A stretch of DNA of 64,000 bases, taken from assembly GCA_002238505.1 (NCBI GenBank), contig MPMM01000009.1, positions 62,001 through 126,000 of the forward strand. The letters run 5' to 3'. The notes under the pieces are model-generated. The model saw only the letters and a program-made list of their open reading frames with translations. It was not told where the DNA came from and ran no database searches. The stretch's first letter is position 1. Every line of letters begins with the position of its first letter. This document shows, one piece after another, positions 1,861 to 19,157 of the stretch. This DNA comes from SAR202 cluster bacterium bin22. GTDB lineage: Bacteria > Chloroflexota > Dehalococcoidia > Lucifugimonadales > UBA3495. A program made the position numbers and the translations under genes.

Positions 1861-2706
1861 ATGGCAGATTACGCCCATCCCGAGTCTCTGGTAAGCACCG
1901 AATGGGTGGCGGAACATGGCAGCGACGCCAACGTGCGCCTGATAGAGGTGGACGTGGACACTGCGGCCTACGAGCAGGGTCACGTCGCTGGCGCCGTGGG
2001 CTGGAACTGGCAGAGTCAGTTGCAACAGTCCCTCCGCCGGGATCTTTTGAGCAAAGAGGAGATGGAACAGCTTCTGGGCAACGCCGGAGTCGGCGGTGAC
2101 ACGACCATAGTGGTGTACGGCGACAACAATAACTGGTTTGCCGCCTGGGCTTTCTGGCAGATCCGTTATTACGGCCACGCTGACGTTAAGCTGATGAACG
2201 GCGGCCGGGCCAAGTGGGAGGCCGAGAGCCGGCCCATGACCACGGAGGTTCCCAGCTACACTGCGACCAACTACACCGCCAAGGACCCGAACGAGAGCAT
2301 TCGGGCCTACCGGGACCAGGTACTTGCGGCGGTGGGCGCGGGCAACACCGCCCTGGTGGACGTGCGGTCGCCGGCGGAATTCAGCGGAGAACTGCTGGCT
2401 CCCCCCAACATGCCCCAGGAAGGCTCCCAGCGGGGCGGGCACATCCCCGGCGCCGCCAACATCCCCTGGGGCCAGGCCGCCAACGAGGACGGCACCTTCA
2501 AGTCGGCCGATGAACTGGCCGCGCTGTACGGCGGCAACGGGATCGACGGCAGCAGGGACACCATCGCCTACTGCCGCATCGGCGAGCGTTCGTCCCACAC
2601 CTGGTTCGTGCTGACCCAACTGCTGGGCTACGATAATGTCCGCAACTACGACGGTTCGTGGACGGAGTGGGGAAGCATTGTGGGGGCGCCGATAGAGAAG
2701 CCGTAG
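1861..2706 (+). CDS. sseA: Sulfurtransferase, tandem rhodanese domains
   Basis: This 281-residue protein has two rhodanese domains and matches thiosulfate/3-mercaptopyruvate sulfurtransferases, which pass a sulfane sulfur through a cysteine persulfide. The N-terminal domain (about residues 5-130) lacks the cysteine and has VVYGDNNNW at the corresponding loop. The C-terminal domain carries the active-site loop CRIGERS with catalytic Cys238 and the upstream HIPGAANIPW motif. The ATG at 1861 is preferred over 1801 because the Shine-Dalgarno GGAGGAA ends about 9 bases before it. The gene diverges from queF. The choice between thiosulfate and mercaptopyruvate as donor is not settled; the CRIGERS loop fits bacterial thiosulfate-type enzymes. 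Confidence 0.93.
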   Translation: MADYAHPESLVSTEWVAEHGSDANVRLIEVDVDTAAYEQGHVAGAVGWNWQSQLQQSLRRDLLSKEEMEQLLGNAGVGGDTTIVVYGDNNNWFAAWAFWQIRYYGHADVKLMNGGRAKWEAESRPMTTEVPSYTATNYTAKDPNESIRAYRDQVLAAVGAGNTALVDVRSPAEFSGELLAPPNMPQEGSQRGGHIPGAANIPWGQAANEDGTFKSADELAALYGGNGIDGSRDTIAYCRIGERSSHTWFVLTQLLGYDNVRNYDGSWTEWGSIVGAPIEKP

Positions 2707-2723
2707 CGGCTACCCAGACTCAG

Positions 2724-2790
2724 ACATGGATGGACAGGATGGACAGGATTAGACATTGGTTTTCTGTTTTTCCTGTCCTCTTTTGTGTGG
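2724..2790. repeat. Dispersed repeat, ATGGACAGGAT family, with inverted arms
   Basis: The left arm has ATGGA followed by two tandem TGGACAGGAT-like units, and the right arm contains TTTTCCTGTCCTC, which can pair back to the GACAGGA units. Similar sequence occurs at 30246-30320 and 60741-60775, always between genes. Confidence 0.6.
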
Positions 2791-3010
2791 GTCAGCGAAA
2801 AATCTCCCCGGAGAAAGTAGGGGGGCTTTTGGTTGGTGACGTCTGTCATGTTTGCGGTCAGGGATTTGCATTTAACAGGGCACCCGCACTATGGACAAAT
2901 GTCTTGCTGAGTCCTTCGGCAAGCTCAGGATAAACTCCGCCGAAGTACCGAAGCCCCTGCCCCATAACCCGGTGTCTGCTCCCAGGTAAGGGCTTCCATC
3001 GAGGATTTCA

Positions 3011-3035
3011 GGCCCTTCGGCTGCGCTCAGGGCGA
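3011..3035. repeat. REP-like element (CCCTTCG...CTCAGGGCGA family)
   Basis: GCCCTTCGGCTGCGCTCAGG is followed by GCGA, a clear variant of the GTTCGCCCTGAGC..GTCGAAGGGC element found in at least eight other intergenic sites of this window. A weaker copy lies at 2911-2935. Confidence 0.65.
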
Positions 3036-3083
3036 CATTCATTCTTGCGGCAGAGTCCAGGGCAACGGAGTAAAGTGGAGACC

Positions 3084-3239
3084 GTGAACATTGTGAAGCC
3101 GGAATTCAAGGGCGGTAGAGGCGGCAGCGGTGGCAAAGGTGGTGGAAACAGAGGAGGTGGCCGCCCGGCCAACGCTCCGAGCACGACCGGAAACCCCTCC
3201 GGTAGTGGACGGGGCAATAACCCGCCCAAGGGTAAATAG
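3084..3239 (+). CDS. Small glycine-rich basic hypothetical protein
   Basis: This 51-residue frame from GTG at 3084 encodes a very Gly/Lys/Arg/Asn-rich peptide with runs such as GGRGGSGGKGGGNRGGG and a C-terminal NNPPKGK. A weak GGAG precedes the start by about 5 bases; an alternative start is ATG 3045. It has no recognisable domain and is predicted to be disordered; the Gly/Arg/Lys content would suit nucleic-acid contact, but that is speculation. It stands alone between the rhodanese and the convergent asnS. It may not be a real gene. Confidence 0.3.
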   Translation: MNIVKPEFKGGRGGSGGKGGGNRGGGRPANAPSTTGNPSGSGRGNNPPKGK

Positions 3240-3329
3240 ATTGCAGGTGCAGCGGTTAAACACAGGACGAGAGGCGCCCTGTGTGAGCGCCTCTCGTCTT
3301 TCACTTCAGGAGCCATTTTTGCTGTTCGC

Positions 3330-4727
3330 CTAAAACTCCGCGTTTTTGGGTGTTCTTGGGAAGGGGATTACGTCGCGGATGTTTTGCATGCCGGTGGCGA
3401 ACTGGACGGTTCGCTCGAAGCCCAGGCCGAAGCCGGCGTGGGGGACGGTGCCGTAGCGGCGCAGGTCGAGGTACCACCAGTAGTTTTCTGCGTCCAGGCC
3501 CGACTGGCGCATACGGTCCAGCAGAACATCTTCCCGTTCCTCGCGCTGGCTGCCGCCGATAATCTCCCCGATGCGGGGCACCAGCACGTCCATGGCCCGC
3601 ACGGTTTCCCCGTCCTCGTTCATGCGCATGTAGAAGGCCTTGATGTCTTTGGGGTAGTCGGTTACGACCACCGGCCGGCCTATGCGCTTTTCGGTGATGT
3701 AGCGTTCGTGCTCGGACTGGAGGTCGAGGCCCCAGGAGACGGGGAACTCGAAGGTCTCGCCGGATGTTTCCAGGAGCTTGATGGCCTCGGTATAGGTCAG
3801 GCGCTCGAAGCTGGAGTTGATGATGCCTTCCAGCGTGGAAATGGCCGTGTTGTCGTACCACTGATTGAAGAAGGCCATGTCCTCAGGGCACTTGTCCAGG
3901 GCCGCGCTGAAGACGTACTTGAGGAAGTCCTCGGCCAGTTCGGCCAGGCCATCGAGGTCGCAGAAGGCCACCTCGGGTTCCACCATCCAGAACTCGGCCA
4001 GGTGGCGGGAGGTGTTGGAGTTTTCGGCCCGGAAGGTGGGGCCGAAGGTATAGACATCGGTCATGGCCAGGGCGAAGATTTCGGCTTCCAGCTGGCCGCT
4101 AACGGTGAGGAAGGTGGGCTGACCGAAGAAGTCCTCGGCAGCATCCACCAGGCCATCGCGGCGGGGCGGGTCCTGCAGGTCCAGGGTGGTTACCCGGAAC
4201 ATGGAGCCGGCGCCCTCGGCATCGCTGGCCGTAATCATGGGGGTCTGGATGTACTGGAATCCCCGTTCCTGGAAGAAGCTGTGGATGGCATAGGCCATGG
4301 TGTTGCGGACACGGGCCATGGCGCCGAAGGTGTTGGTGCGGGGCCGCAGATGGGCTATCTCCCGCAGGAACTCTAGGGTATGGCGCTTTTTCTGGAGGGG
4401 GTACTCCTCGGGGTTGGCCTGGCCCAGCACTTCCAGCTTGCTGGCGTTAATTTCGTACTTCTGGTTCCGACCCTCGGACTCCAGGAGTTCGCCTACAACG
4501 CTGATACTGCAGCCGGTGTTTAGAGTTTCCACCAGGGCAAAATCGGGCGATGACGGCTCCACCACGATCTGAAGGTCTTTGAGGGTTGACCCGTCGCTGA
4601 TCTGGATGAAGGAAACCGCGCCCGAAGAGCGCCGGGTCTTGACCCAACCCTGTACCAGCACCTGGCCGCCGGCGGATTCACGATCGAGAATGTCTTTGAC
4701 TCTGGTACGCTGCGTGGAATGTTGCAT
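3330..4727 (-). CDS. asnS: Asparagine--tRNA ligase
   Basis: This 465-residue class IIb aminoacyl-tRNA synthetase charges tRNA-Asn with asparagine in the cytoplasm. An N-terminal OB-fold anticodon-binding domain (about residues 10-110, including [14 protein letters not shown]) is followed by the class II core with the [18 protein letters not shown] region, the [12 protein letters not shown] motif 2 region and the motif 3 block [16 protein letters not shown] ahead of the terminal IPFPRTP. The ATG at 4727 is preceded by GGGAGGG and fits homologs better than an in-frame start 21 bases upstream. Length is normal. The presence of AsnS implies that the GatCAB genes nearby are needed mainly for Gln-tRNA formation. 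The gene is convergent with the small glycine-rich frame. Confidence 0.96.
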
Positions 4728-9112: not shown

Positions 9113-9553
9113 TTACTCTCCGCTGCTGGGCAGGGTGATTATGGCGATGCCTCCCACGTACCGTTCTCCGGCCTCGCCCATCATCAGCACGTCGCACTCG
9201 ATTATGTTCTCCCCGTCCTCTTCCCGGGTGTCGGTGACGGTGGCGGAGATGAGCAGGGGCTTGTTGTGGGGGATTGGCTGACGAAACACCAGGTCCAGGT
9301 CCTTCAGCGACTCGGGCCCCGCCCAGTCGGTAAGAGCCTGGCTCATTATGGCCATGCTCATGACGCCGGGAACAATGGGGCCGGGCAGGCCGGACTTCTC
9401 GGCGATTTCCTGGCTGGTGAAACGGTTGGGCATGGGGTTGCCCCACAACTCGCAGAAGGTGCTCACGTTCTCGTCAGTGGCCACCAATTCTATGGGGCCG
9501 ATCTCGTCGCCCATATCAATGTCTTCAAAGAAGGGTCCGTTCTGGTCAGGCAT
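9113..9553 (-). CDS. MaoC-like hydratase subunit (C-terminal half type)
   Basis: This 146-residue hot-dog-fold protein matches MaoC-type dehydratases. It carries the hydratase signature in the stretch FTSQEIAEKSGLPGPIVPGVMSMAIMSQ. Canonical MaoC proteins have a D-x(4)-H pair here; the aspartate or histidine is not obvious in this copy, so activity may depend on the partner. The ATG at 9553 follows the MPDQNGPF-like start of homologs; an in-frame start 84 bases upstream would overlap the neighbouring gene. The upstream gene encodes a FAS1-like dehydratase domain ending 8 bp away, so the two probably form a two-subunit enoyl-CoA or related hydratase. Confidence 0.8.
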   Translation of the reverse strand: MPDQNGPFFEDIDMGDEIGPIELVATDENVSTFCELWGNPMPNRFTSQEIAEKSGLPGPIVPGVMSMAIMSQALTDWAGPESLKDLDLVFRQPIPHNKPLLISATVTDTREEDGENIIECDVLMMGEAGERYVGGIAIITLPSSGE

Positions 9554-9561
9554 GGATGGCT

Positions 9562-10011
9562 TCACTCCCGAGAGGCGTAGGATTCCTGGACGTCGGCTAC
9601 CACCGTGCCGTCCTGGTTGGTGAAGGTGGTCTCCCAAACGGTGAAGACCATGGTGCCGCTGCGGCCGGTCTTGGGATAGACCTCCTTGAGGTGTGAGGAG
9701 GCCATCAGGCTGTCGCCAGCCACGATGGGGGCGCGGGACTGGACTCGCTGTCCGGCGTGGAAACGCATAACGCCGAAATTCAGTTCAATATCAGGCAGTT
9801 CCACGTTGCGGACCAGCATAGTCACCAGGGTGGGCGGCGCGAGGACGCCGGAGTAGCCCGCCGCCTGGGCTGTGGCCTGGTCGGTAAACATGGCGCTGGT
9901 TTCGCCGATGCTGCGGTTGAATATTTGGATCAGGTCGGCGGTAATTTCAAAGGGACCAGCCTCGTGTTCCACGCCGTACAGGTCCCGGTTGTATTCCAGT
10001 TCCATTGTCAT
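9562..10011 (-). CDS. MaoC N-terminal (FAS1-like) dehydratase subunit
   Basis: This 149-residue protein has the hot-dog fold of the MaoC-dehydratase N-terminal family, with the segment FEITADLIQIFNRSIGETSAMF near the N-terminus, YSGVLAPPTLVTML in the middle and a second half with FHAGQRVQSRAPIVAGDSL. It is probably the partner of the adjacent MaoC-like subunit 8 bp downstream. Such pairs hydrate trans-enoyl-CoA or unsaturated hydroxy acids. The actual substrate is unknown. The ATG start at 10011 is the only convincing one, close to an AGGAGACACCC sequence upstream. Confidence 0.82.
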   Translation of the reverse strand: MTMELEYNRDLYGVEHEAGPFEITADLIQIFNRSIGETSAMFTDQATAQAAGYSGVLAPPTLVTMLVRNVELPDIELNFGVMRFHAGQRVQSRAPIVAGDSLMASSHLKEVYPKTGRSGTMVFTVWETTFTNQDGTVVADVQESYASRE

Positions 10012-10089
10012 GGGTGTCTCCTCAGCGGGGCAGGCCGCTGCGGTTAATCTGCCCTGGAAAAAAGTTTTCGGTGAGCCGGAGGCGGGCTA

Positions 10090-10737
10090 TTATTTCGCGT
10101 CCTTCAGCCACACGGGAGTAAAGTCACCGGCCAGCAGGGCTTCCACCAACTGCCGCTCGTCCCTGACATCGGTGGGGAAGGAGGTCAGGCAGGCGCCCAG
10201 GTGGCTGGCCAGGTGAGCGTCGCTGCCGCCGGTGCCCAGGTAGTTCTGCTCCTGGCACAGGGTGTCGGCCCGCTCGTTTTCTCCGGCCCGGCTGCCGCCA
10301 TTCAGGCGTTCAACCATATTGAGGCCGGGGAAGGTCTCCCCCTGCTCCATGTAATCCACCAGGCCAATTCCAAAGCGTCCCGGGTGGGCCGGAACGGCAA
10401 TGGCCCCGTGGTGGCGCGCGGCCTTCATCAATTCACGGGCGTCCATCTTAACGTCGCCCAGGTCAATGTCTTTGGCCAATGCTTCGGTGACGCCATAAAC
10501 CAGGACATGACCATAGCGGGTGTCCAGTTCCGACCCTTTCATGATAAGGACGTCGTACTCGGCGGCCAGTTGAGAGTAGTCCTTGTCGAAATCGAACTTG
10601 CGGTGCTCGGTGAGGACGAAGCCGTCAATGGTGCAGCCCCGCTTGTTGCGGAGCACCTGCACCCATTTTACGTACTGCTCTACGGTGGCACGAGAATCGT
10701 CGGAGGATACGGAGTGGCTGTGAAGGTCCAGGTACAT
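10090..10737 (-). CDS. PHP domain phosphoesterase-like protein
   Basis: This 215-residue protein is a PHP-domain member. It begins with MYLDLHSHSVSSDD, which provides the His-x-His metal-binding motif. Later metal ligands lie in TEHRKFDF, AVPAHPGRFG and the C-terminal GGSDAHLASHLG. These proteins are metal-dependent phosphoesterases or nucleases; without a fused domain the substrate cannot be given. It is the most upstream gene of the long minus-strand block. A 463-bp gap with repeats separates it from the divergent TPP-enzyme operon. Confidence 0.85.
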   Translation of the reverse strand: MYLDLHSHSVSSDDSRATVEQYVKWVQVLRNKRGCTIDGFVLTEHRKFDFDKDYSQLAAEYDVLIMKGSELDTRYGHVLVYGVTEALAKDIDLGDVKMDARELMKAARHHGAIAVPAHPGRFGIGLVDYMEQGETFPGLNMVERLNGGSRAGENERADTLCQEQNYLGTGGSDAHLASHLGACLTSFPTDVRDERQLVEALLAGDFTPVWLKDAK

Positions 10738-10995
10738 CGGTTGCGACTATTGCTCCAAGCTGCGGTTACCGGCAGGGCTTCAGTCGGGTTGTAACATTGA
10801 ATCGGGCGGTTCGGACCCGCGCTGAAGTTGCTTTGAGCTACGGCAACAATAATAGCGTTTGGGCCGTTATTCGGCAACCAAAGGGGACCGGCGGGGGGGT
10901 CGTCCGCTCCCGGTGTGCCAGGTCAGGTAACGCTTTTTTGGGGCAGGCTACAGGGGCAGCCGATTATTGTTGGGCATTCCCCGGAAACCGTTCGT

Positions 10996-11078
10996 GGTGA
11001 GCCCTTCGTCGGGCTCCGGTCAGGCTGGTCGAACCACACCGGATGGCCCTTCGACATGCTCAGGGCGAACGGATGAAA
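10996..11078. repeat. REP-like element, GTGGTGAGC...CTCAGGGCGAACGG family
   Basis: The element starts GTTCGTGGTGAGC, contains GGTCGAACCAC and ends CATGCTCAGGGCGAACGG. In inverse orientation this matches the interior of the terminal-inverted-repeat elements at 42879 and 45721, showing that they share a core. Confidence 0.7.
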
Positions 11079-11129
11079 AGTCCCCAACCGAAACAGTAAA
11101 AAGGGCCCTGGTGGCGGCGATTCGCTTTG

Positions 11130-11158
11130 TTGACTACATATGGGCCCCTTAATATAAT
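11130..11158 (+). promoter_or_regulatory. Near-consensus sigma-70-type promoter of the TPP-enzyme operon
   Basis: TTGACT (11130-11135), a 17-bp spacer and TATAAT (11153-11158) lie 42 bp before the start codon. This would place transcription start near 11165. It is one of the cleanest promoters in the window. Confidence 0.85.
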
Positions 11159-11200
11159 GAGGCAGATTTGAAGCCAAATTCAGTCCCGTAAGGAGACGTA

Positions 11201-11707
11201 ATGACGACCTACGATTCAGTGTTGCATCCACCGGCAATAATTGCCGAGTTGAAGAAAAACAACATTACCCACGTGGTCTGGCTGCCGGACAGCGAGACCA
11301 ATTTCATGTACCAGCTTTTGAACGACGAGGATTCGCTGGATCTGGTGCCCGTGTGCCGCGAGGGCGAGACCATGGCCATCGCCGCCGGACTGTGGGTGGG
11401 CGGCAAGAAGCCGGTAGTCCTGATTCAGAACACCGGCATTTTCGAGTCCGGCGACTCCATCCGGGGGCTGGGACTGGACATTAACCAGCCGCTGGTAATG
11501 CTCATCGGCTACCGGGGCTGGACTCGCCGGGGTCCCACACCCGATTCGGCAGCCCGCTTTATTGAGCCCATCCTGCACACCTGGGGCATCAACTGCTACC
11601 TGATTGAAACCGATGACGACGCAGACCGCATCAGCATTGCCTGCGAAGAGGCGGAGCGTACCCAGAAGCCCGTCGGCGTCCTGGTCGGAACTGAATTCGG
11701 CGTCTAG
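11201..11707 (+). CDS. Sulfopyruvate decarboxylase-like alpha subunit (TPP enzyme PYR domain)
   Basis: This 168-residue protein matches the PYR domain of thiamine-diphosphate decarboxylases of the ComD (sulfopyruvate decarboxylase alpha) and phosphonopyruvate decarboxylase group. The catalytic glutamate region VCREGETMAIAAGLWVGGKK is near residue 50, followed by PVVLIQNTG and MLIGYRG. The partner with the cofactor PP domain lies 24 bp downstream, so the functional enzyme is probably a two-subunit decarboxylase of a 2-oxo acid bearing a sulfonate or phosphonate. The substrate is inferred from family only. RBS AAGGAG lies 7 bases before ATG. Confidence 0.85.
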   Translation: MTTYDSVLHPPAIIAELKKNNITHVVWLPDSETNFMYQLLNDEDSLDLVPVCREGETMAIAAGLWVGGKKPVVLIQNTGIFESGDSIRGLGLDINQPLVMLIGYRGWTRRGPTPDSAARFIEPILHTWGINCYLIETDDDADRISIACEEAERTQKPVGVLVGTEFGV

Positions 11708-11731
11708 CCCGTTACTGAGGAGAATGAAAGC

Positions 11732-12328
11732 ATGATTAACAACACCGACGCCGTAAAGCTTATTGACAGCAAGCGGACCGATTCGGTCATAGTACCCACC
11801 ATGAACGCCAACAACGTGGGCTTTGGCCTGCCCAGCGTCACCAGCAACCAGGACCTGGACCTGCCCCTTTCCGGAGCCATGGGCAAGGCTTCCAACCTGG
11901 GCCTGGGGATCGCGCTGGCCCAGCCCGACCGCAAGGTTATGGTGCTGGACGGGGATGGCAGCCTTTTGATGAACCTGGGCACCATGGTAACCTCGGCCAA
12001 CAAGGCTCCCACCAACTTCTATCACTTCCTGTTCAACAACAAGGTCTATGCCGTTACCGGCGGGCAGCCCATTCCGGGCTCAGATTGCCAGGACTGGGAA
12101 GGCATGGCCAAGGCAGCAGGATACGCCGCGGTCTTTTCCTACGACAACCTGGAGGACTTTACCACCGGCATTGATGAAGCCCTGGCCGCAACCGGCCCGG
12201 TGTTCATCCATCTGTCCGTTGAGCCGCAGGTTGAGAATACGCCGGTGCAGTTCCGCCAGCGGTCTCCCCGCACGGTCAAGATGGCCTTCGACGAAGTACC
12301 GGCGGCCCTGGGCGCCAGGTCCGGCTAA
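11732..12328 (+). CDS. Sulfopyruvate decarboxylase-like beta subunit (TPP-binding PP domain)
   Basis: This 198-residue protein carries the thiamine-diphosphate and Mg-binding motif: VLDGDGSLLMNLG starting near residue 70 and ending with FNNKVYAVTGGQP, so the GDG...NN pattern is complete. It matches the ComE/phosphonopyruvate decarboxylase beta group and pairs with the PYR subunit 24 bp upstream. The ATG is preceded by GAGGAG. A strong terminator follows 37 bp after the stop, so these two genes form a closed transcription unit. Confidence 0.87.
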   Translation: MINNTDAVKLIDSKRTDSVIVPTMNANNVGFGLPSVTSNQDLDLPLSGAMGKASNLGLGIALAQPDRKVMVLDGDGSLLMNLGTMVTSANKAPTNFYHFLFNNKVYAVTGGQPIPGSDCQDWEGMAKAAGYAAVFSYDNLEDFTTGIDEALAATGPVFIHLSVEPQVENTPVQFRQRSPRTVKMAFDEVPAALGARSG

Positions 12329-12365
12329 GGTCGAGCAGCCCCTCTTTACCGGGAGCAACAGTTCG

Positions 12366-12400
12366 CGAGGCGGCCCCTTGCTGGCCGCCTCGTTTTGTTT
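12366..12400 (+). terminator. Intrinsic terminator of the TPP-enzyme pair
   Basis: CGAGGCGGCC (12366-12375) pairs perfectly with GGCCGCCTCG (12383-12392) around a 7-base loop, followed by TTTTGTTT. It separates the decarboxylase pair from the small membrane protein gene. Confidence 0.92.
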
Positions 12401-12464
12401 GTATATTGAACCCGTAAGGGTGCAGCGAGGGGCGGTCCCCAATGCTTGGAAACGGCTGTAACAT

Positions 12465-12737
12465 TTGATAAAGGACTTGAGCAGAAGTCTGCTGGGGCGG
12501 CTGATAAGCCTGGGCATTTTTGCCCTGGGGTTCTGGGTGCTGTACCAGGGACTGCTGCGGGATGACAACCCGGTGCTATTGGCATTGGGCGTGGTGGCGG
12601 GAAGCGCGCTCATCCTGGGGGGCCTGTACCTGATGGCCACCACGCGAAAGCTGGCCGCCCGGACGGCAGCGCAACGGGAAAAGGAACTGGAGGAGACGAC
12701 TGGTGATTCCCTCGAAGGAAGCGGCAAGGGCGATTAG
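12465..12737 (+). CDS. Small two-helix membrane protein
   Basis: This 90-residue frame encodes two transmembrane helices (about residues 12-30 and 36-58, with GIFALGFWVLYQG and ALILGGLYLMAT), followed by a cytoplasmic charged tail rich in Glu and Lys. No family was recognised. The start is TTG at 12465, and no good ribosome-binding site is visible, so a TTG at 12477 is an alternative. Its last 35 bases overlap the following beta-like gene in another frame, so the two are likely co-expressed. The role is unknown. Confidence 0.6.
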   Translation: MIKDLSRSLLGRLISLGIFALGFWVLYQGLLRDDNPVLLALGVVAGSALILGGLYLMATTRKLAARTAAQREKELEETTGDSLEGSGKGD

Positions 12738-13272
12738 TTTCCACCGGCAGGACGCGCTGGTGGTATCGACCTCGGCGGCGCTGCGGGACTGGAACCAGGT
12801 TTCGGAACGGCGAGAGCTGGATATTGACCTGACGGACTGCATGGACCGGGCCCCGGCAGTGGGCCTGGGTCTGTCGCTGGCCCAGCCGGAACGAAAAGTG
12901 CTGGTGCTGGACTGCGACGCTACCCTGCGCACGGACCTGGGGTCCCTGGCGACCATTGGTGAGTCGCGGCCGGAAAATCTGGTCCACTTTGTATTTGACG
13001 ACGCCACTCACCTGTCCACCGACGGGATTCCGGTAGAGGGACTGGACAACGTGAACTTCGCCTCCATGGCCGAGGGGGCCGGCTACTCGCGCACCTACCG
13101 TTTCGAAAACCCTGAGGAACTGTTCATCGGGCTGGAAGAAGTGATGAAGGAACCGGGCCCGGTGTTTGTGGTGGTGAAAGTGCTGCGAGATGAGGAAATG
13201 GCGCCCTTCCCGGAGCGACAAATGGCCGAGGGCTGGGCCGAAGTACGGGAAACCCTGCTGGCGGGAGGCTAG
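12703..13272 (+). CDS. Divergent TPP-enzyme beta-like subunit with altered cofactor motif
   Basis: This 189-residue protein is a paralog of the beta subunit encoded about 1 kb upstream. Both share the layout GLGLSLAQPERKVLVLD, the central motif and the C-terminal GPVFVVVKV. Here the GDG...NN motif reads LDCDATLRTDLG and FVFDDATH, so both glycines of GDG and both asparagines are replaced while the central Asp stays. Metal ligation may survive but TPP binding is doubtful. The GTG start at 12703 has GGAGGAG about 8 bases upstream and lies inside the preceding gene. No alpha partner adjoins it, so it may assemble with the upstream alpha subunit, act as a regulator, or be decaying. Confidence 0.75.
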   Translation: MIPSKEAARAISFHRQDALVVSTSAALRDWNQVSERRELDIDLTDCMDRAPAVGLGLSLAQPERKVLVLDCDATLRTDLGSLATIGESRPENLVHFVFDDATHLSTDGIPVEGLDNVNFASMAEGAGYSRTYRFENPEELFIGLEEVMKEPGPVFVVVKVLRDEEMAPFPERQMAEGWAEVRETLLAGG

Positions 13273-13310
13273 CAACTACTGGTTCTATTGGGGGCAGCGC
13301 CAGCGCTGTC

Positions 13311-13335
13311 TGGAGGTCTGGAGGTCTGGAGGCTT
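13311..13335. repeat. Short tandem repeat, three 8-bp units
   Basis: Three consecutive CTGGAGGT-type units occur just after the beta-like gene. A chance or slippage origin is likely. Confidence 0.5.
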
Positions 13336-13401
13336 TACGTCCTGGCGATATTCAATCCGAGAGGCATAACCGGCAAATCTGCGCGTCATTGGGGGTAAGT
13401 T

Positions 13402-13770
13402 ATGGCAGCAGCAACCGACTACCTGCGAATCCTCGGAGACCTGGGAATCGACACAGACCAATCGGGACCAAGACAGACCAACTCAAGCCGAATATTGAAG
13501 GGCAAAGATGGCCAGCGGTATTCGGGCATTTATCTGAATCGGCAGGTGGGCATCACCTATTTCGCGGTAAATCCTGGCGCGGCAACGGTGGAAATTGACT
13601 GGGACCTGTGGCAGGCAGTACCACCTTCCGTATCAGTTCCCCGCTTCGACCTGGACAAGCACAACATAATGCCCAAGCCGGGCCAGGAGCAACGCGCGCT
13701 GCGGAGCCTGCTGGAAATGTCGTCGGGCGGGGGCTTTTTGAATTTCCTCAAGGGCCTGTTCGGCGGCTAA
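13402..13770 (+). CDS. Hypothetical protein
   Basis: This 122-residue soluble protein starts ATAATGCC-independent at ATG 13402 and has no domain that I recognise. Visible features are a mid-protein stretch YSGIYLNRQVGITYFAVNPGAATVEIDWDLWQ that looks like alternating beta strands, and a C-terminal Gly/Phe/Leu-rich tail GGGFLNFLKGLFGG that could be membrane-active or a docking peptide. It stands alone, 130 bp after the beta-like gene and convergent with the DtxR-family gene. Base composition is like its neighbours. Confidence 0.6.
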   Translation: MAAATDYLRILGDLGIDTDQSGPRQTNSSRILKGKDGQRYSGIYLNRQVGITYFAVNPGAATVEIDWDLWQAVPPSVSVPRFDLDKHNIMPKPGQEQRALRSLLEMSSGGGFLNFLKGLFGG

Positions 13771-13800
13771 AACCCGGTCGAACCAGCGGACTGCCTTACT

Positions 13801-14571
13801 TCAGGCCTGCTCGACTTCAGTTTGGGCGGGTCTCACCAGGATCTGTCTTGCCACGTTGAAGCCCATGGACACCTGCTCTGTGGGCGTGGCCAACGTCATT
13901 ACCCCCAGATAAGGTGTGGCTTCGGCAACACTTACCCTGCTTTCCGGCACAATTTGCGCGCCGTCCAGGAACCGCAACAGGTTGGGGTCCTCTTCGGGTA
14001 TGCGCTCGACCACGTACTCTGTGTCCCCTGAGGCCGCGTCCAGGGTAATGCAGTCGGGCGGCAGGGGTGCGGCCCCGGCTCCTGGTATCGGACGGCCAAA
14101 TGGCGACTTTTCGGGATAGTCCAGCCTTTCCCGCAGCTTGGCTTCCAGTTCTCCGGAAATACCGTGCTCCAAGCGATGAGCCTCAATGTGGGCGGATTCC
14201 AGGTTCATTCCCAGCAGGCGGACCACCAGCCATTCGGCCAACCGGTGGCGACGGGCAATATCCTCTCCGCCCTCGAAGCCCTTTCCGGTCAGGCGGATGC
14301 GCTTGTCCGACCCAATGTCCACCAGGCCCTGCTTCTGCATCCGGCGAGTCATGCCGGCCACGGAGGGTACCGAGGAACCCAGTCCTTCGGTGGAGGGCAA
14401 CTGCTTGATTGCGTCGGTAAGCTGGGTCACCGTAGGCGTGACGGCGTCTTCCCACAGGCGGTACAGGCAGAGCAGGTAGTTTTCCGTCACCGCCGAAAAA
14501 CGTTCAAGACCATCTTCCTCGTCTTCCATCGCTGCCTGGGCGCGGGAGGGCGCCTTCCTGGACCTGGGCAT
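13801..14571 (-). CDS. DtxR/MntR-family metal-dependent transcriptional regulator
   Basis: This 256-residue protein has an N-terminal winged helix (about residues 25-105, with VTENYLLCLYRLWEDAVTPTVTQLTDAI and the recognition region SVAGMTRRMQKQGLVDI), then a metal-binding and dimerisation domain with RHRLAEWLVVRLLGM and HIEAHRLEHGIS. The C-terminus is an SH3/FeoA-like domain (from about residue 185). DtxR proteins repress genes when loaded with Fe(II) or Mn(II). The divergent iron ABC transporter 2 kb away is the obvious candidate target. The gene is a little longer than the usual 230 residues owing to an N-terminal extension rich in Arg, Ser and Ala. Confidence 0.9.
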   Translation of the reverse strand: MPRSRKAPSRAQAAMEDEEDGLERFSAVTENYLLCLYRLWEDAVTPTVTQLTDAIKQLPSTEGLGSSVPSVAGMTRRMQKQGLVDIGSDKRIRLTGKGFEGGEDIARRHRLAEWLVVRLLGMNLESAHIEAHRLEHGISGELEAKLRERLDYPEKSPFGRPIPGAGAAPLPPDCITLDAASGDTEYVVERIPEEDPNLLRFLDGAQIVPESRVSVAEATPYLGVMTLATPTEQVSMGFNVARQILVRPAQTEVEQA

Positions 14572-14913
14572 AAAGTTACCTCGCTAACGTGGCGTGGCTG
14601 CGCAATTCACACATGCTATAACGTCACTTAATCGGGCGCATAGCCTGAGATGGATGAATTATACAACGGGGCAGCAGCAATGGTAAAAAAGTTGCCCGCA
14701 GGGTCAGGACAATCGCGTCTTGTTCCTGGCTGTGCACTCAAGTGGGAGTCGTGCCGCCCTGAGCCCGCCGATGGGCCCGATATTCTTCCGCAGGCCCCGG
14801 TTATGGGTCCGAATGGTAGCTTGTGGAAAGGAATTTGGATTCCTCACTTCGTTAACAATGACAATCCTGGCAGTTCAGGTTGACAATTCGTTAAAACGCG
14901 ATGGCCCTGCCCG
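14572..14913. other. Intergenic region, no recognised gene
   Basis: This 342-bp gap lies between two minus-strand genes and should hold the promoter of the DtxR-family gene at its left end. TTATAG near 14615 (minus strand) is a possible -10, but no convincing -35 accompanies it. Nothing else was recognised. Confidence 0.5.
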
Positions 14914-15702
14914 TTAACCGAAGTCGAAGCTGGCGTTAATGGGCGGCGCCGAAGCAGGCGACGGTCGGTACAGATCGACACGATAGATGCGAGTTGTCAC
15001 ACCATCTCTCGCTTGAACGGTCACGGCAAATTCGGTGATGGCGTCCTCGGCCAGGGAAACACTGGCGGCAAGCCGGTTGCTGGCCGGGTCCTGAATAGTG
15101 GTGACGTCACCGACAGTAGTCGAGATTATGCGTGCGCCGGCTTCCGTCGTCTCCGCGACTACGCTGACGGAGTCAGCATTGACCGAGAGTGCGTAAGAGG
15201 TTACATCCGGGTCAAACCCCGGCGTCAACGCGGCCATGGTTCCGTCTTTAACGACAGTCAATGAAATCAGGGAGGCGTCCTCCAGGGAGGAAACCTGCAC
15301 CGCCTCCGGAGCGAAGGGTGACAACCGGTTCGTTTCGGCGGGCGTTACCGGTGCCCAACCATTGAACCGCGGTTCCGAAGAAGCCAAACCCGCCAGGGAG
15401 AAGGAAATAACCTGCAGGCTTGGGTAAGTGTGATTGCCAACACCCTCGTGGTTTGATACTTCTACTGCCTGGGCGGGTATTGCCTGCGCTGGCAGCGGGG
15501 GCTGAAGCGAGTCCCGATGGGCTTGGGCTTGCGCAGTTTCAGCTTCAATCCCTGGCGAACCGAATGGGGCCGCGTCCACCGCCTCTGATGGTGTGGCACA
15601 AAGGGTTGATACCGTGAATGTCACAATAAGAAGGAAAAGGCCCAGGCATGCCACCAGGGTGGTGATATTCGGTCCCTGTGAATTTGATGCGCTGTATTTC
15701 AT
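14914..15702 (-). CDS. Secreted protein with cadherin-like beta-sandwich domain
   Basis: This 262-residue protein has an N-terminal hydrophobic segment (about residues 14-36, TTLVACLGLFLLIVTFTVS) that fits a signal peptide or anchor, a low-complexity Ala/Gln/Pro middle, and a C-terminal domain (about residues 155-250). The domain starts LTVVKDGTMAALTPGFDP and closes with the TRIYRVDLYR strand. That is the pattern of the bacterial cadherin-like beta-sandwich family often found in surface proteins. It probably acts outside the cell. No partner genes adjoin it; a candidate promoter lies about 170 bp upstream. Confidence 0.75.
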   Translation of the reverse strand: MKYSASNSQGPNITTLVACLGLFLLIVTFTVSTLCATPSEAVDAAPFGSPGIEAETAQAQAHRDSLQPPLPAQAIPAQAVEVSNHEGVGNHTYPSLQVISFSLAGLASSEPRFNGWAPVTPAETNRLSPFAPEAVQVSSLEDASLISLTVVKDGTMAALTPGFDPDVTSYALSVNADSVSVVAETTEAGARIISTTVGDVTTIQDPASNRLAASVSLAEDAITEFAVTVQARDGVTTRIYRVDLYRPSPASAPPINASFDFG

Positions 15703-16196: not shown

Positions 16197-17348
16197 CTAG
16201 TCCTCGAGGGCGACACCGTCAACGAAGGGCTTGAGGGAGTGGCCGCATCGGACCTGAACCGCCACCCGGGTACCTACATCGTACTCGTCGGTGTGAGATA
16301 GAAGGCTGCGCACCGTTCCGCCACCATCCAGGGCGATCCAGTACAGGTAGAAGGCTCCCCGAAACTCGCGCTCTACAATGACGCCATTGCCGTCCTCTGA
16401 GGGGTGGCAATCGATGCAGTCGGGGCGAACCATGGCTTCCAGAACGCCTTCCCGCTCGACGTGGGACGGCCACTGGGTGGAGCCTATAGAGGTGGAGAAA
16501 GTATCGCCCTCCTGCCGGGCGGGTACGAAGTCCACCATGCCGATGAACTCGGCGACAAACTTGCTGCGCGGTTGGTGAAAGATCTCTGCCGGTGTTCCCT
16601 GCTGCTCAATGCTGCCCAGGTTCATAACGGCGATGCTGTCGCCCACGTACATGGCCTCATCCTGGTCGTGGGTCACGAAAACGGCGGTAATGCCGCTGGA
16701 ACGCAGGATGGCAACAACGTCGCGGCGGACCTGCTCGCGAAGTCCGGGGTCCAGGTTGGAGAAAGGTTCGTCCAGCAGGAGCAGTTCCGGGCGTGGCGCA
16801 AGGGCCCGGGCAAGGGCCACCCGCTGCTGCTGGCCACCGGACAGTTCGTAGGGCATACGCTGGGTCAGGCCTTCCAGTCCGGTCAGCTTCACAACGTCGG
16901 CCACGCGCTGGGAGGAGTCTTCACCCTTGGGCAATCCGTAGGCGATGTTCTGTTCCACGGTGAGATGGGGGAAAAGAGCGCCTTCCTGGAAAACCATGCC
17001 CACCCGGCGCTTTTCGGGGGGAGTGCTTCCGCCCTGATCGTAAACGGTCTCCGATGCCAGCCTGATGGAGCCCGCGTCTGGGTTGGAAAACCCGGCCATC
17101 AAGCGAAGGGCCGTGGTTTTGCCGCAACCGCTGGGGCCCAGCAGGGCCAGGATGCGACCCTGGGGGACCTGAACGCTGAAACCGTTAAGGACAACCACGC
17201 CATCGAACTGCTTGGTCAGGCCGGCGCACTCCAGCATAGGAGCTTCGTCAGGAGAAGCAAAATCCCAATCTGCGACTCCGCTGCCGGTACCTGTTGCATG
17301 TTCCGGGTCCTGGTGGGAAACCTTAGCTAGTCGGTCCCTGATTACCAA
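16197..17348 (-). CDS. fbpC: Ferric iron ABC transporter ATP-binding protein
   Basis: This 383-residue ABC ATPase energises iron(III) import. Walker A is GPSGCGKT (about residues 80-87), the signature is [15 protein letters not shown], Walker B is LLLLDEP and the H-loop is [12 protein letters not shown]-terminal regulatory TOBE-like region covers the last 110 residues. The TTG at 17348 is proposed as the start because GGAGG lies exactly 6 bases upstream; another TTG at 17378 is less well placed. The gene faces away from the binding protein and permease genes across a 741-bp divergent region, with its own promoter at 17424-17452. Confidence 0.9.
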
Positions 17349-17423
17349 AGACGGCCTCCGTGCCTTAAAGGGCTCCAACGACCTGCTGCAATTTACGTAT
17401 CAGCATTATTGCCCTGTCGGCAC

Positions 17424-17890: not shown

Positions 17891-17958
17891 CTCTCAAAAT
17901 TACAGTGTGTATATTTATTAAGGAGTGATGTACATCTTTATGAGAAGAATATTGCCCG

Positions 17959-18012
17959 GCGTGTCCACTGCTTTTACCTGTCCTCCTCCCCGGGCAGGAG
18001 CAGTGGACACGC
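17959..18012 (+). promoter_or_regulatory. Leader hairpin with anti-Shine-Dalgarno loop
   Basis: GCGTGTCCACTGCT (17959-17972) pairs perfectly with AGCAGTGGACACGC (17999-18012). An inner CCTG/CAGG stem adds to it. The apical loop carries TCCTCCTCC, which is complementary to the AAGGAGGG ribosome-binding site of the iron-binding protein gene at 18077-18084. It lies inside the predicted transcript between promoter and gene. It could be a translational control element; an alternative is a simple structured leader. Confidence 0.6.
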
Positions 18013-18089
18013 GCCGTCATTGCCCAGATAAGAAGCACGGGCCGTGGCCGGTAATCTCAGGAATGTCTTTATTTACAAGGAGGGCACCC

Positions 18090-19157
18090 ATGTCGAGGTC
18101 TCACCATGCCGGCCGGAGCTACCTGGCTATAATACTGAGTGTTCTAATTGTTGCCATGCTGGCGACAGGCTGCGCCCGCGAGGTTGTCAAGGAGATGCCC
18201 GTTGAGGTAGTAGTCGAGAAGGAAGCGGACACCGGCAAGCTGGTGGTTTACTCCGGCCGCAGTGAGTCCCTGGTCGATAACATTATCAGTCAGTTCGCCG
18301 AAGCCACGGGAATAGATGTGGAGGTCAGGTACGCCAATACGGGTCAGCTGGCCGCGACCCTTCTGGAAGAGGGCGAGAATTCGCCGGCGGATATCTTCTT
18401 TGCTCAGGATCCCGGAGGGCTGGGAACAGTAGAGTCCCAGTTGGCCTCCCTGCAGGCCAGCGTCCTGCAAAAGGTGCCAGAGTGGGCGCAGTCGCCCAAC
18501 GGAAAATGGGTAGGCATTTCCGGTCGGGCTCGCACCGTGGTTTACAACTCGGAGAATCTTACCGAAGCAGACTTGCCGGACGATATGTTCGGGTTTACTG
18601 ACCCTGAGTGGAAGGACCGCATCGGCTGGGCGCCAACCAACGCTTCATTCCAGACCATGGTGACCGCCATGCGCTCCCAGTGGGGAGAGGAGCGGACCCG
18701 GCAATGGCTGGAAGGGGTCCAGGCCAACGACCCAAGGGTCTATCCCAAGAACACTCCCCAAGTGGCTGCGGCAGCCTCCGGGGAGATTGACGTGGGTTTT
18801 GTGAACCACTACTACCTCTTCCGCTTCCTGGCCGAGGAGGGAGAGGACTTCCCGGCCCGCAACTACCATCCACGGGCGGGTGGACCCGGGTCCATAGTAA
18901 TGGTTTCAGGCGCTGGTATCCTGAACACAGCCGATAACCCGGAAAACGCTGAAAGGTTCCTGCAGTTCATGCTGTCTCCGGTAGCCCAGCAATATTTTGC
19001 CGCGCAGACTTTCGAGTACCCCCTGGTAGATGGGGTAAACACCCAGCATGTGCTGGTAGCGCTGGACGAAATTGTTAAGCCGGACCTGACCGCCGGCGAC
19101 CTGACGGACCTGGCCGGAACTCAGGCTTTGTTGCAGGATACGGGAGTTCTGCCATAA
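18090..19157 (+). CDS. fbpA: Ferric iron ABC transporter substrate-binding lipoprotein
   Basis: This 355-residue protein begins with a signal peptide whose lipobox is LATGC, so it is a membrane-anchored lipoprotein on the outer face of the cell. A short charged linker is followed by LVVYSGRSESLVDNI, the start of the iron-binding fold. Tyrosine-rich segments such as GFVNHYYLFRFL match the metal site of FbpA/AfuA-type proteins. The ATG at 18090 is chosen because AAGGAGG precedes it at 6 bases and the lipoprotein signal starts there; an upstream in-frame GTG at 17925 would run through the leader hairpin. The permease gene follows 40 bp downstream. Confidence 0.92.
   Translation: MSRSHHAGRSYLAIILSVLIVAMLATGCAREVVKEMPVEVVVEKEADTGKLVVYSGRSESLVDNIISQFAEATGIDVEVRYANTGQLAATLLEEGENSPADIFFAQDPGGLGTVESQLASLQASVLQKVPEWAQSPNGKWVGISGRARTVVYNSENLTEADLPDDMFGFTDPEWKDRIGWAPTNASFQTMVTAMRSQWGEERTRQWLEGVQANDPRVYPKNTPQVAAAASGEIDVGFVNHYYLFRFLAEEGEDFPARNYHPRAGGPGSIVMVSGAGILNTADNPENAERFLQFMLSPVAQQYFAAQTFEYPLVDGVNTQHVLVALDEIVKPDLTAGDLTDLAGTQALLQDTGVLP

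Follow-up and report, generated by a model that had tools for sequence, protein, structure and literature searches.

A stretch of 64,000 nucleotides from the genome of SAR202 cluster bacterium bin22 (contig MPMM01000009.1), hereafter called the window, contains two genes resembling beta subunits of TPP-dependent decarboxylases. The first has the cofactor motifs of an ordinary beta subunit. The second, hereafter called beta2, has these motifs in altered form and overlaps the gene of a small membrane protein, hereafter called TM. The question raised by this locus is whether beta2 is a decaying copy, an enzyme that is still active, or a protein which has taken on another role, and whether such a role would involve the decarboxylase encoded beside it.

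Organization of the locus

The intact pair codes for a two-subunit TPP decarboxylase, with the alpha (PYR-domain) subunit at 11201..11707 (+) and the beta (PP-domain) subunit (P0002) at 11732..12328 (+). The alpha subunit was recognized with NCBIfam and Pfam profiles, matching sulfopyru_alph with an E value of 2.1e-23 and 83 bits, which is less than the cut-off of 147.95, and TPP_enzyme_N with 26.9 bits (cut-off 26.8). Its CREGETMA sequence, the Glu of which we take to be the catalytic residue, is invariant in the linked alphas of all 32 aligned loci, the window counted. The beta subunit, with GDG and NN intact, matches Pfam TPP_enzyme_C (E 1.8e-18) and, under the cut-off, sulfopy_beta (E 5.4e-35); GDG is present in the linked betas of 32 out of 32 loci, again counting the window. 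The alpha-beta pair of the window reaches no NCBIfam equivalog cut-off. The organism's own genome gave no match to ComA, and hence no sign of coenzyme M synthesis, and none of its four PEP-mutase-like matches was over the cut-off.

A promoter-like site (TTGACT-17-TATAAT, 11/12 in a consensus scan) is located at 11130..11158 (+), 5' of the alpha gene. The scan returned 2 sites, against 1.1 in shuffled sequences, and gives no evidence of function. Between the beta gene and the TM gene there is a hairpin resembling an intrinsic terminator at 12365..12393 (+), consisting of an 11-pair stem and a subsequent T run, and this is the strongest of three terminator-like sites, the other stems having 7 and 5 pairs. 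The preliminary description of the locus had beta2 separated from the intact pair by a strong terminator. The stem and the T run are indeed present in the window, but three sites are no more than the mean of 3.4 obtained with shuffled sequences, the RNA fold of 12329-12464 is unexceptional (z -1.41, 13 of 200 shuffles being equally good), and since a terminator-like hairpin was found under a strict rule in the beta-beta2 gap of 9 of 32 loci (window counted), a terminator at this place is not a general feature. The Rfam search gave nothing up to E 1 across 9500-15500.

The open reading frames of TM (12465..12737, +; 90 amino acids, TTG start, identified by hydropathy and profile) and of beta2 (12703..13272, +; 189 amino acids, GTG start, identified by Pfam, profile and model) both exist as originally reported and overlap by 35 nt. 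The GTG had been called well placed, which agrees with a GGAGGAG-like ribosome site seen by eye approximately 7 nt before it. Downstream of beta2 are genes for an iron-dependent-repressor-type regulator with a FeoA domain (13801-14571, -), an ABC ATPase (16197-17378, -) and a solute-binding protein (17925-19157, +). A homolog of the regulator is found 3' of beta2 in 29 of the 34 named loci (the loci being short in at least L016 and L042), and a neighbour of this type would be of interest if beta2 binds metal.

Family membership and predicted fold of beta2

The predicted amino acid sequence of beta2 belongs to the TPP_enzyme_C family (PF02775; E 2.7e-11, 43.9 bits, cut-off 21.9), and the protein is of the beta (PP-domain) type known from ComDE/RhiEF-like, two-subunit TPP decarboxylases. 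Its scores with the sulfopyruvate decarboxylase beta subunit (TIGR03846, 69.8 bits) and with phosphonopyruvate decarboxylase (TIGR03297, 91.2 bits) lie below the respective equivalog cut-offs of 221.5 and 312.5. The best of five AF2 models (mean pLDDT 74.9, pTM 0.78) has the fold of a PP domain, with poor loops at residues 26-39, 75-77 and 168-170 and low confidence in the pocket loops; the five models differ from one another, the other four having mean pLDDT of 54-63 (lowest 54.3). The active beta subunit, modelled as a control (pLDDT 80.5), was likewise predicted with least certainty around residues 27-29, and its GDG-bearing block (71-80) had a pLDDT of 76, compared with 58 in beta2. The best solved relative of beta2 is RhiF, both by sequence profile (E 3.1e-14) and by Foldseek (E 1.8e-10), and comparison of the model with RhiF chain 9iz3_B gave a VIA Z of 20.3 and an rmsd of 2.9 with 167 residues aligned. 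The PF02775 match above the cut-off and the predicted TPP PP-domain fold bear out the earlier statement that beta2 keeps the features of the fold.

The rebuilt cofactor pocket

Three motifs are changed when beta2 is aligned to the beta subunit of the window. Codons 45-48 (12835..12846, +), in the cofactor loop, code for DCMD where beta has GAMG; codons 70-73 (12910..12921, +), in the metal/diphosphate motif, code for DCDA in place of DGDG, so that GDG has become CDA; and codons 99-100 (12997..13002, +) code for DD in place of NN. The altered positions presumably line the diphosphate/metal site, as in TPP-enzyme structures. The replacement of GDG by CDA and of NN by DD had been noticed before and both are confirmed, but the change of GAMG to DCMD had not been listed and the Asp of GDG is in fact retained.

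The signature D45 C46 M47 D48, D70 C71 D72 [AS]73 T74 R76 T77 and D100 is present in all 46 genomes of the host's family that have beta2, with A in 33 and S in 13 of them at position 73. The first relatives of beta2 were found by patterns that included the altered motif; the family was re-searched with a whole-length profile, built from 29 of 35 sequences, and the motif was read in every one of the 46 strong matches. The 35 sequences, namely that of the window and 34 named relatives, are 57-97% identical over the best segment, and their invariant positions include D42, D45, C46, M47, D48, A50, P51, D70, C71, D72, T74, R76, T77, N92, H95, D100, S105, T106 and G108. Mean column identity in the beta2 alignment is 76%, and the rebuilt pocket positions are invariant. 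Where the cofactor motif would read G-D-G...N-N, beta2 has C-D-A/S...x-D, with the Asp retained and both Gly lost, and in place of the diphosphate loop G-x-M-G it has D-C-M-D in 46 of 46 genomes.

These residues were compared with 84 other homolog rows (88 minus 4 copies of beta2, some of the rows being near copies of one another), counted after exclusion of rows with fewer than 120 matched residues or an E value above 1e-8. D48 and C71 are absent from all 84, G73 is universal among them, and position 48 is occupied by G in 79 rows and by S in 5. Singly, C46 occurs in 23 of these rows, D45 in 5 and D100 in 9. The 32 linked betas include none with D45, D48, C71 or A/S73, and three with C46. The changes specific to the beta2 lineage are thus D48, C71 and A/S73, and C46, which is found in ordinary betas, is not diagnostic. 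Because beta2 keeps the Asp of GDG, and because the change of the second N to D is also seen in relatives with intact GDG, these two points alone do not prove loss of the cofactor. D72, D100, T74 and M47 are kept at what we take to be the positions of D, N/D, S and a bulky residue in TPP enzymes, so that binding of metal or even of TPP would be possible. As judged from the alignments, the motif is rebuilt and not broken: the metal-binding Asp is kept and the glycines are replaced by acidic and thiol side chains.

Conservation and selection

A strong full-length match to the beta2 profile (E 2.7e-92 or better) was obtained in 46 of the 50 genomes of the host's family. The best match outside the family had an E value of 1.5e-54 among 293 further genomes sampled from the class and 2.3e-51 among 399 sampled from the phylum, two sets which overlap; those out-of-family matches that were read have GDG, ADG, SDG, SEG or AEG. 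Beta2 and TM are both absent from four genomes of the family (G317, G319, G326 and G338), which are 67-85% complete. The 34 named loci overlap the 50 family genomes (L044, for example, is G340:C25), and counts from the two sets are therefore not independent.

Of 17 beta2 pairs, two were without usable dS; in the other 15 the NG86 dN/dS ratio was 0.039-0.095, similar to that of the active beta (0.012-0.275, 11 pairs). In pairs which included loci lacking alpha and beta (L044 with L022, L033 and L036; L028 with L033) it was 0.039-0.068. Beta2 is under strong purifying selection. Pseudogene decay or a sequencing error, in favour of which there is the altered catalytic motif and nothing else, has a negligible probability and was rejected, as one rebuilt motif with identical changes is common to all 46 beta2 genomes and dN/dS is below 0.1 in every one of the 15 usable pairs. 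Intact motifs in relatives had been named beforehand as the observation that would speak for error or decay; all 46 orthologs have the altered motif, and a pseudo-enzyme is strongly supported over decay.

The membrane protein

TM has two hydrophobic stretches according to hydropathy and positive charge at both ends. The charges suggest an N-in/C-in hairpin, so that the tail of TM would come together with beta2 on the cytoplasmic side. A small hydrophobic open reading frame was found 5' of beta2 in all 34 named loci, in 33 by hydropathy scan and in L041 by reading. The TM profile, made from 21 aligned sequences with a common two-helix plan (the window and 20 named loci), matched 46 of the 50 family genomes, which are exactly the 46 with beta2. 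In all of these TM is located 5' of beta2 on the same strand, and in 32 it overlaps the start of beta2. The 293 other genomes of the class gave a single weak match (G114, E 4.9e-4, with an internal stop), which was taken as chance, as was a second weak match elsewhere in G339 (E 0.005). Four of the 46 profile matches cross a stop codon; in the two that were placed (G313 = L015 and G327 = L041) this codon falls right at the end of the match. TM is poorly conserved, with a mean column identity of 37%, the exceptions being G22, L26 and G46 and the near-invariant R12 and F23. The preliminary description had suggested a membrane link for beta2 and asked whether the two genes are kept together in relatives; they are, in 46 of 46 genomes, and this co-occurrence and adjacency supports the link.

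Linkage to the alpha-beta pair

In 31 of the 34 named loci, alpha and beta share the strand of beta2 and are found within 3 kb 5' of it. The family has 43 genomes with a linked-type alpha (E 5.2e-76 or better). All of them carry beta2, and the linked alpha is absent from the other 3 of the 46 beta2 genomes (G335, G337 and G340), which belong to one genus. In these three, TM is still present along with a beta2 whose signature is complete, and one has a remnant of beta. Among the named loci, L028 and L044 have lost both alpha and beta, and L035 has a beta remnant of approximately 74 matching residues, 47% identical, without a Pfam match; all three have other genes upstream on the same contigs, and their TM and beta2 are whole. 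G338 has a partial alpha, truncated where the contig ends. In this survey a whole linked alpha was never found without beta2, and TM-beta2 can outlive alpha-beta. Other alphas, 62% and 60% identical, are present in G335 and G337, respectively, and G340 (87% complete) has one distant alpha only (E 3.2e-11).

Origin of beta2

A FastTree phylogeny of 160 sequences groups the 39 rows of beta2 in a single clade (support 0.999), which is sister, with support of 0.884, to three genes, L046 (G081), L052 (G147) and L100 (G322:C138). A tree made without 12 pocket columns from 95 rows (all rows of the class "other" and every third or fourth of the rest) again had beta2 as one clade (97), grouping with the three sisters (83). 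L052 is unusual in composition and sits on a long branch, and support for the sister group is moderate. Each of the three sister genes is the second beta of an alpha-beta-beta' array, has GDG and is without a TM gene in between; from this placement, beta2 most likely started as the beta' of such an array. Its descent from a GDG-bearing beta' has moderate support from the trees, and TM would have been gained and the glycines lost in the ancestor of the host's family.

One of the arrays, L164 (G322:C138, all genes on the - strand: alpha 3146-3664, beta 2500-3087, beta' 1840-2406), has SEG in the first beta and GDG in the second, the reverse of the asymmetry in the window. This array and L166 (G147) adjoin yidC- and jag-like genes, named by eye. 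Three tandem beta-type genes, two with GDG and one with ADG, are found in L047/L121 (G037:C73).

The own genome also has two betas of a lineage in which GDG is replaced by SEG, each beside an alpha gene (L002 and L003; G000:C40:53746-54276 and G000:C12:116226-116741). The SEG lineage, which has an Asp-to-Glu change at the metal position and AEG in one row, is a single clade (18 of 160 rows, support 1.0), includes G257 and G270 of the same order and represents another conserved motif change, affecting the first beta. A further GDG beta of the own genome, L004 (G000:C39:33634-34149), has no alpha match on its contig and is followed by an MR_MLE gene of the enolase superfamily; the MR_MLE family is reported to have undergone expansion in groups I and II of SAR202 (PMC6946804).

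Possible function of TM-beta2

From its sequence conservation TM-beta2 looks like a real, selected pseudo-enzyme module. We tentatively prefer, short of calling it probable, the reading that it is a membrane-tethered, neo-functionalised non-TPP pseudo-subunit which partners or regulates the alpha-beta decarboxylase, a reading favoured by the linkage, the descent and the retained PP fold. Beta2 would have given up the ordinary diphosphate pocket, gained one lined by Asp and Cys and become inseparable from the two-helix membrane protein. It would no longer perform TPP decarboxylation. TM would keep it on the inner side of the membrane, where it may dock on alpha or on alpha-beta and tether or tune the active enzyme, possibly in answer to a ligand or metal bound by D45, C46, D48, C71, D72 and D100.

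TM-beta2 could instead be an independent membrane-bound sensor or binding protein on a TPP fold, analogous to Thi3, with alpha-beta a mere old neighbour. Its retention without alpha-beta in 3 of 46 genomes, the unbroken co-occurrence of TM and beta2 and the invariance of a pocket in a protein of otherwise lower column identity would all fit a sensor, but the pair is present in the remaining 43 genomes, the losses are confined to one genus, two of the three pair-less genomes still have other alphas approximately 60% identical, and Pfam found no signalling domain in either short protein; we regard this reading as possible rather than likely. It is improbable that beta2 is an enzyme with new chemistry, in which the two Cys and the Asp residues of the pocket would coordinate a metal or provide a thiol site replacing Mg-TPP. 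The invariance of D45, C46, D48, C71, D72, T74, R76, T77 and D100 in all 46 genomes, at positions which the alignment to RhiF presumably assigns to the diphosphate/metal pocket, is consistent with such a site, but C46 is shared with ordinary betas. An active decarboxylase, in which beta2 would still bind Mg-TPP together with alpha and have an altered substrate range, appears very improbable: D72, D100, T74 and M47 are retained, D at position 100 occurs in other rows as well, and yeast acetolactate synthase reportedly has GDA, but the replacement of Gly by Asp at 45 and 48 and by Cys at 71 would put charge and bulk at the diphosphate site, and neither D48 nor C71 was seen in the 84 other rows.

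Survival after the loss of alpha-beta favours a function of its own for TM-beta2, which keeps both the sensor and the new-site readings under consideration. We consider it unlikely that the diphosphate site of a TPP subunit has here been turned into a metal or thiol (Asp/Cys) site on a dedicated two-helix anchor, working without the parent enzyme as a membrane-tethered sensor or catalyst. As for the original suggestion of a membrane-linked modulating subunit or pseudo-enzyme, it is partly supported: a pseudo-enzyme has strong support as against decay, and modulation is plausible in view of the linked alpha in 43 of 46 genomes and the alpha-beta-beta' ancestry but is weakened by the three pair-less genomes.

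An old alpha-beta-beta' array seems to have been split into one active and one rebuilt beta, with a new membrane partner fixed across the family. Beta2 offers a natural experiment in the conversion of an enzyme subunit to a non-enzyme, with intact-motif sisters for comparison. It is near-universal in a family of uncultured Chloroflexota, and its ligand is directly testable.

Comparison with known systems

No described case in SAR202 or of a pseudo-subunit of this kind was found in the open literature searched (pseudoenzymes, GDG motif, Chloroflexi), nor was a paper on a SAR202 sulfopyruvate decarboxylase. Thi3 of yeast is said to be related to pyruvate decarboxylase and, to our knowledge, has no membrane partner. 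It further differs from TM-beta2 in being eukaryotic and in working with transcription factors, and is described as a thiamine sensor which activates Pdc2 and Thi2 (PMC4299793).

Two-subunit TPP decarboxylases described in the literature include ComDE and RhiEF (PMC12141560) and, as a further member of this type, the quinoxaline decarboxylase LumK/LumL, such enzymes being reported as rare (PMC12746152). The alpha-imino acid decarboxylase AzcB/AzcC (PDB 9u8q) is likewise a two-subunit TPP decarboxylase according to its PDB title. AzcBC and LumKL are reported to be active, and the descriptions compared do not mention a degenerate third subunit. The split alpha/beta arrangement of the sulfopyruvate decarboxylase ComDE (TIGR03845/TIGR03846) is also that of alpha and beta in the window, with matches below the cut-off; beta2 is set apart from ComDE by its score of less than a third of the TIGR03846 cut-off and by the missing ComA match in the own genome. 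The closest likeness is to RhiF, the beta subunit of the phosphonopyruvate decarboxylase RhiEF (PDB 9iz3/9iz4), which has the same small stand-alone PP-domain fold as beta2 and is encoded with a separate PYR-domain subunit (PMC12141560). RhiF, however, retains GSMG, GDGS and DN, whereas beta2 has DCMD, CDA/S and DD, and a membrane partner.
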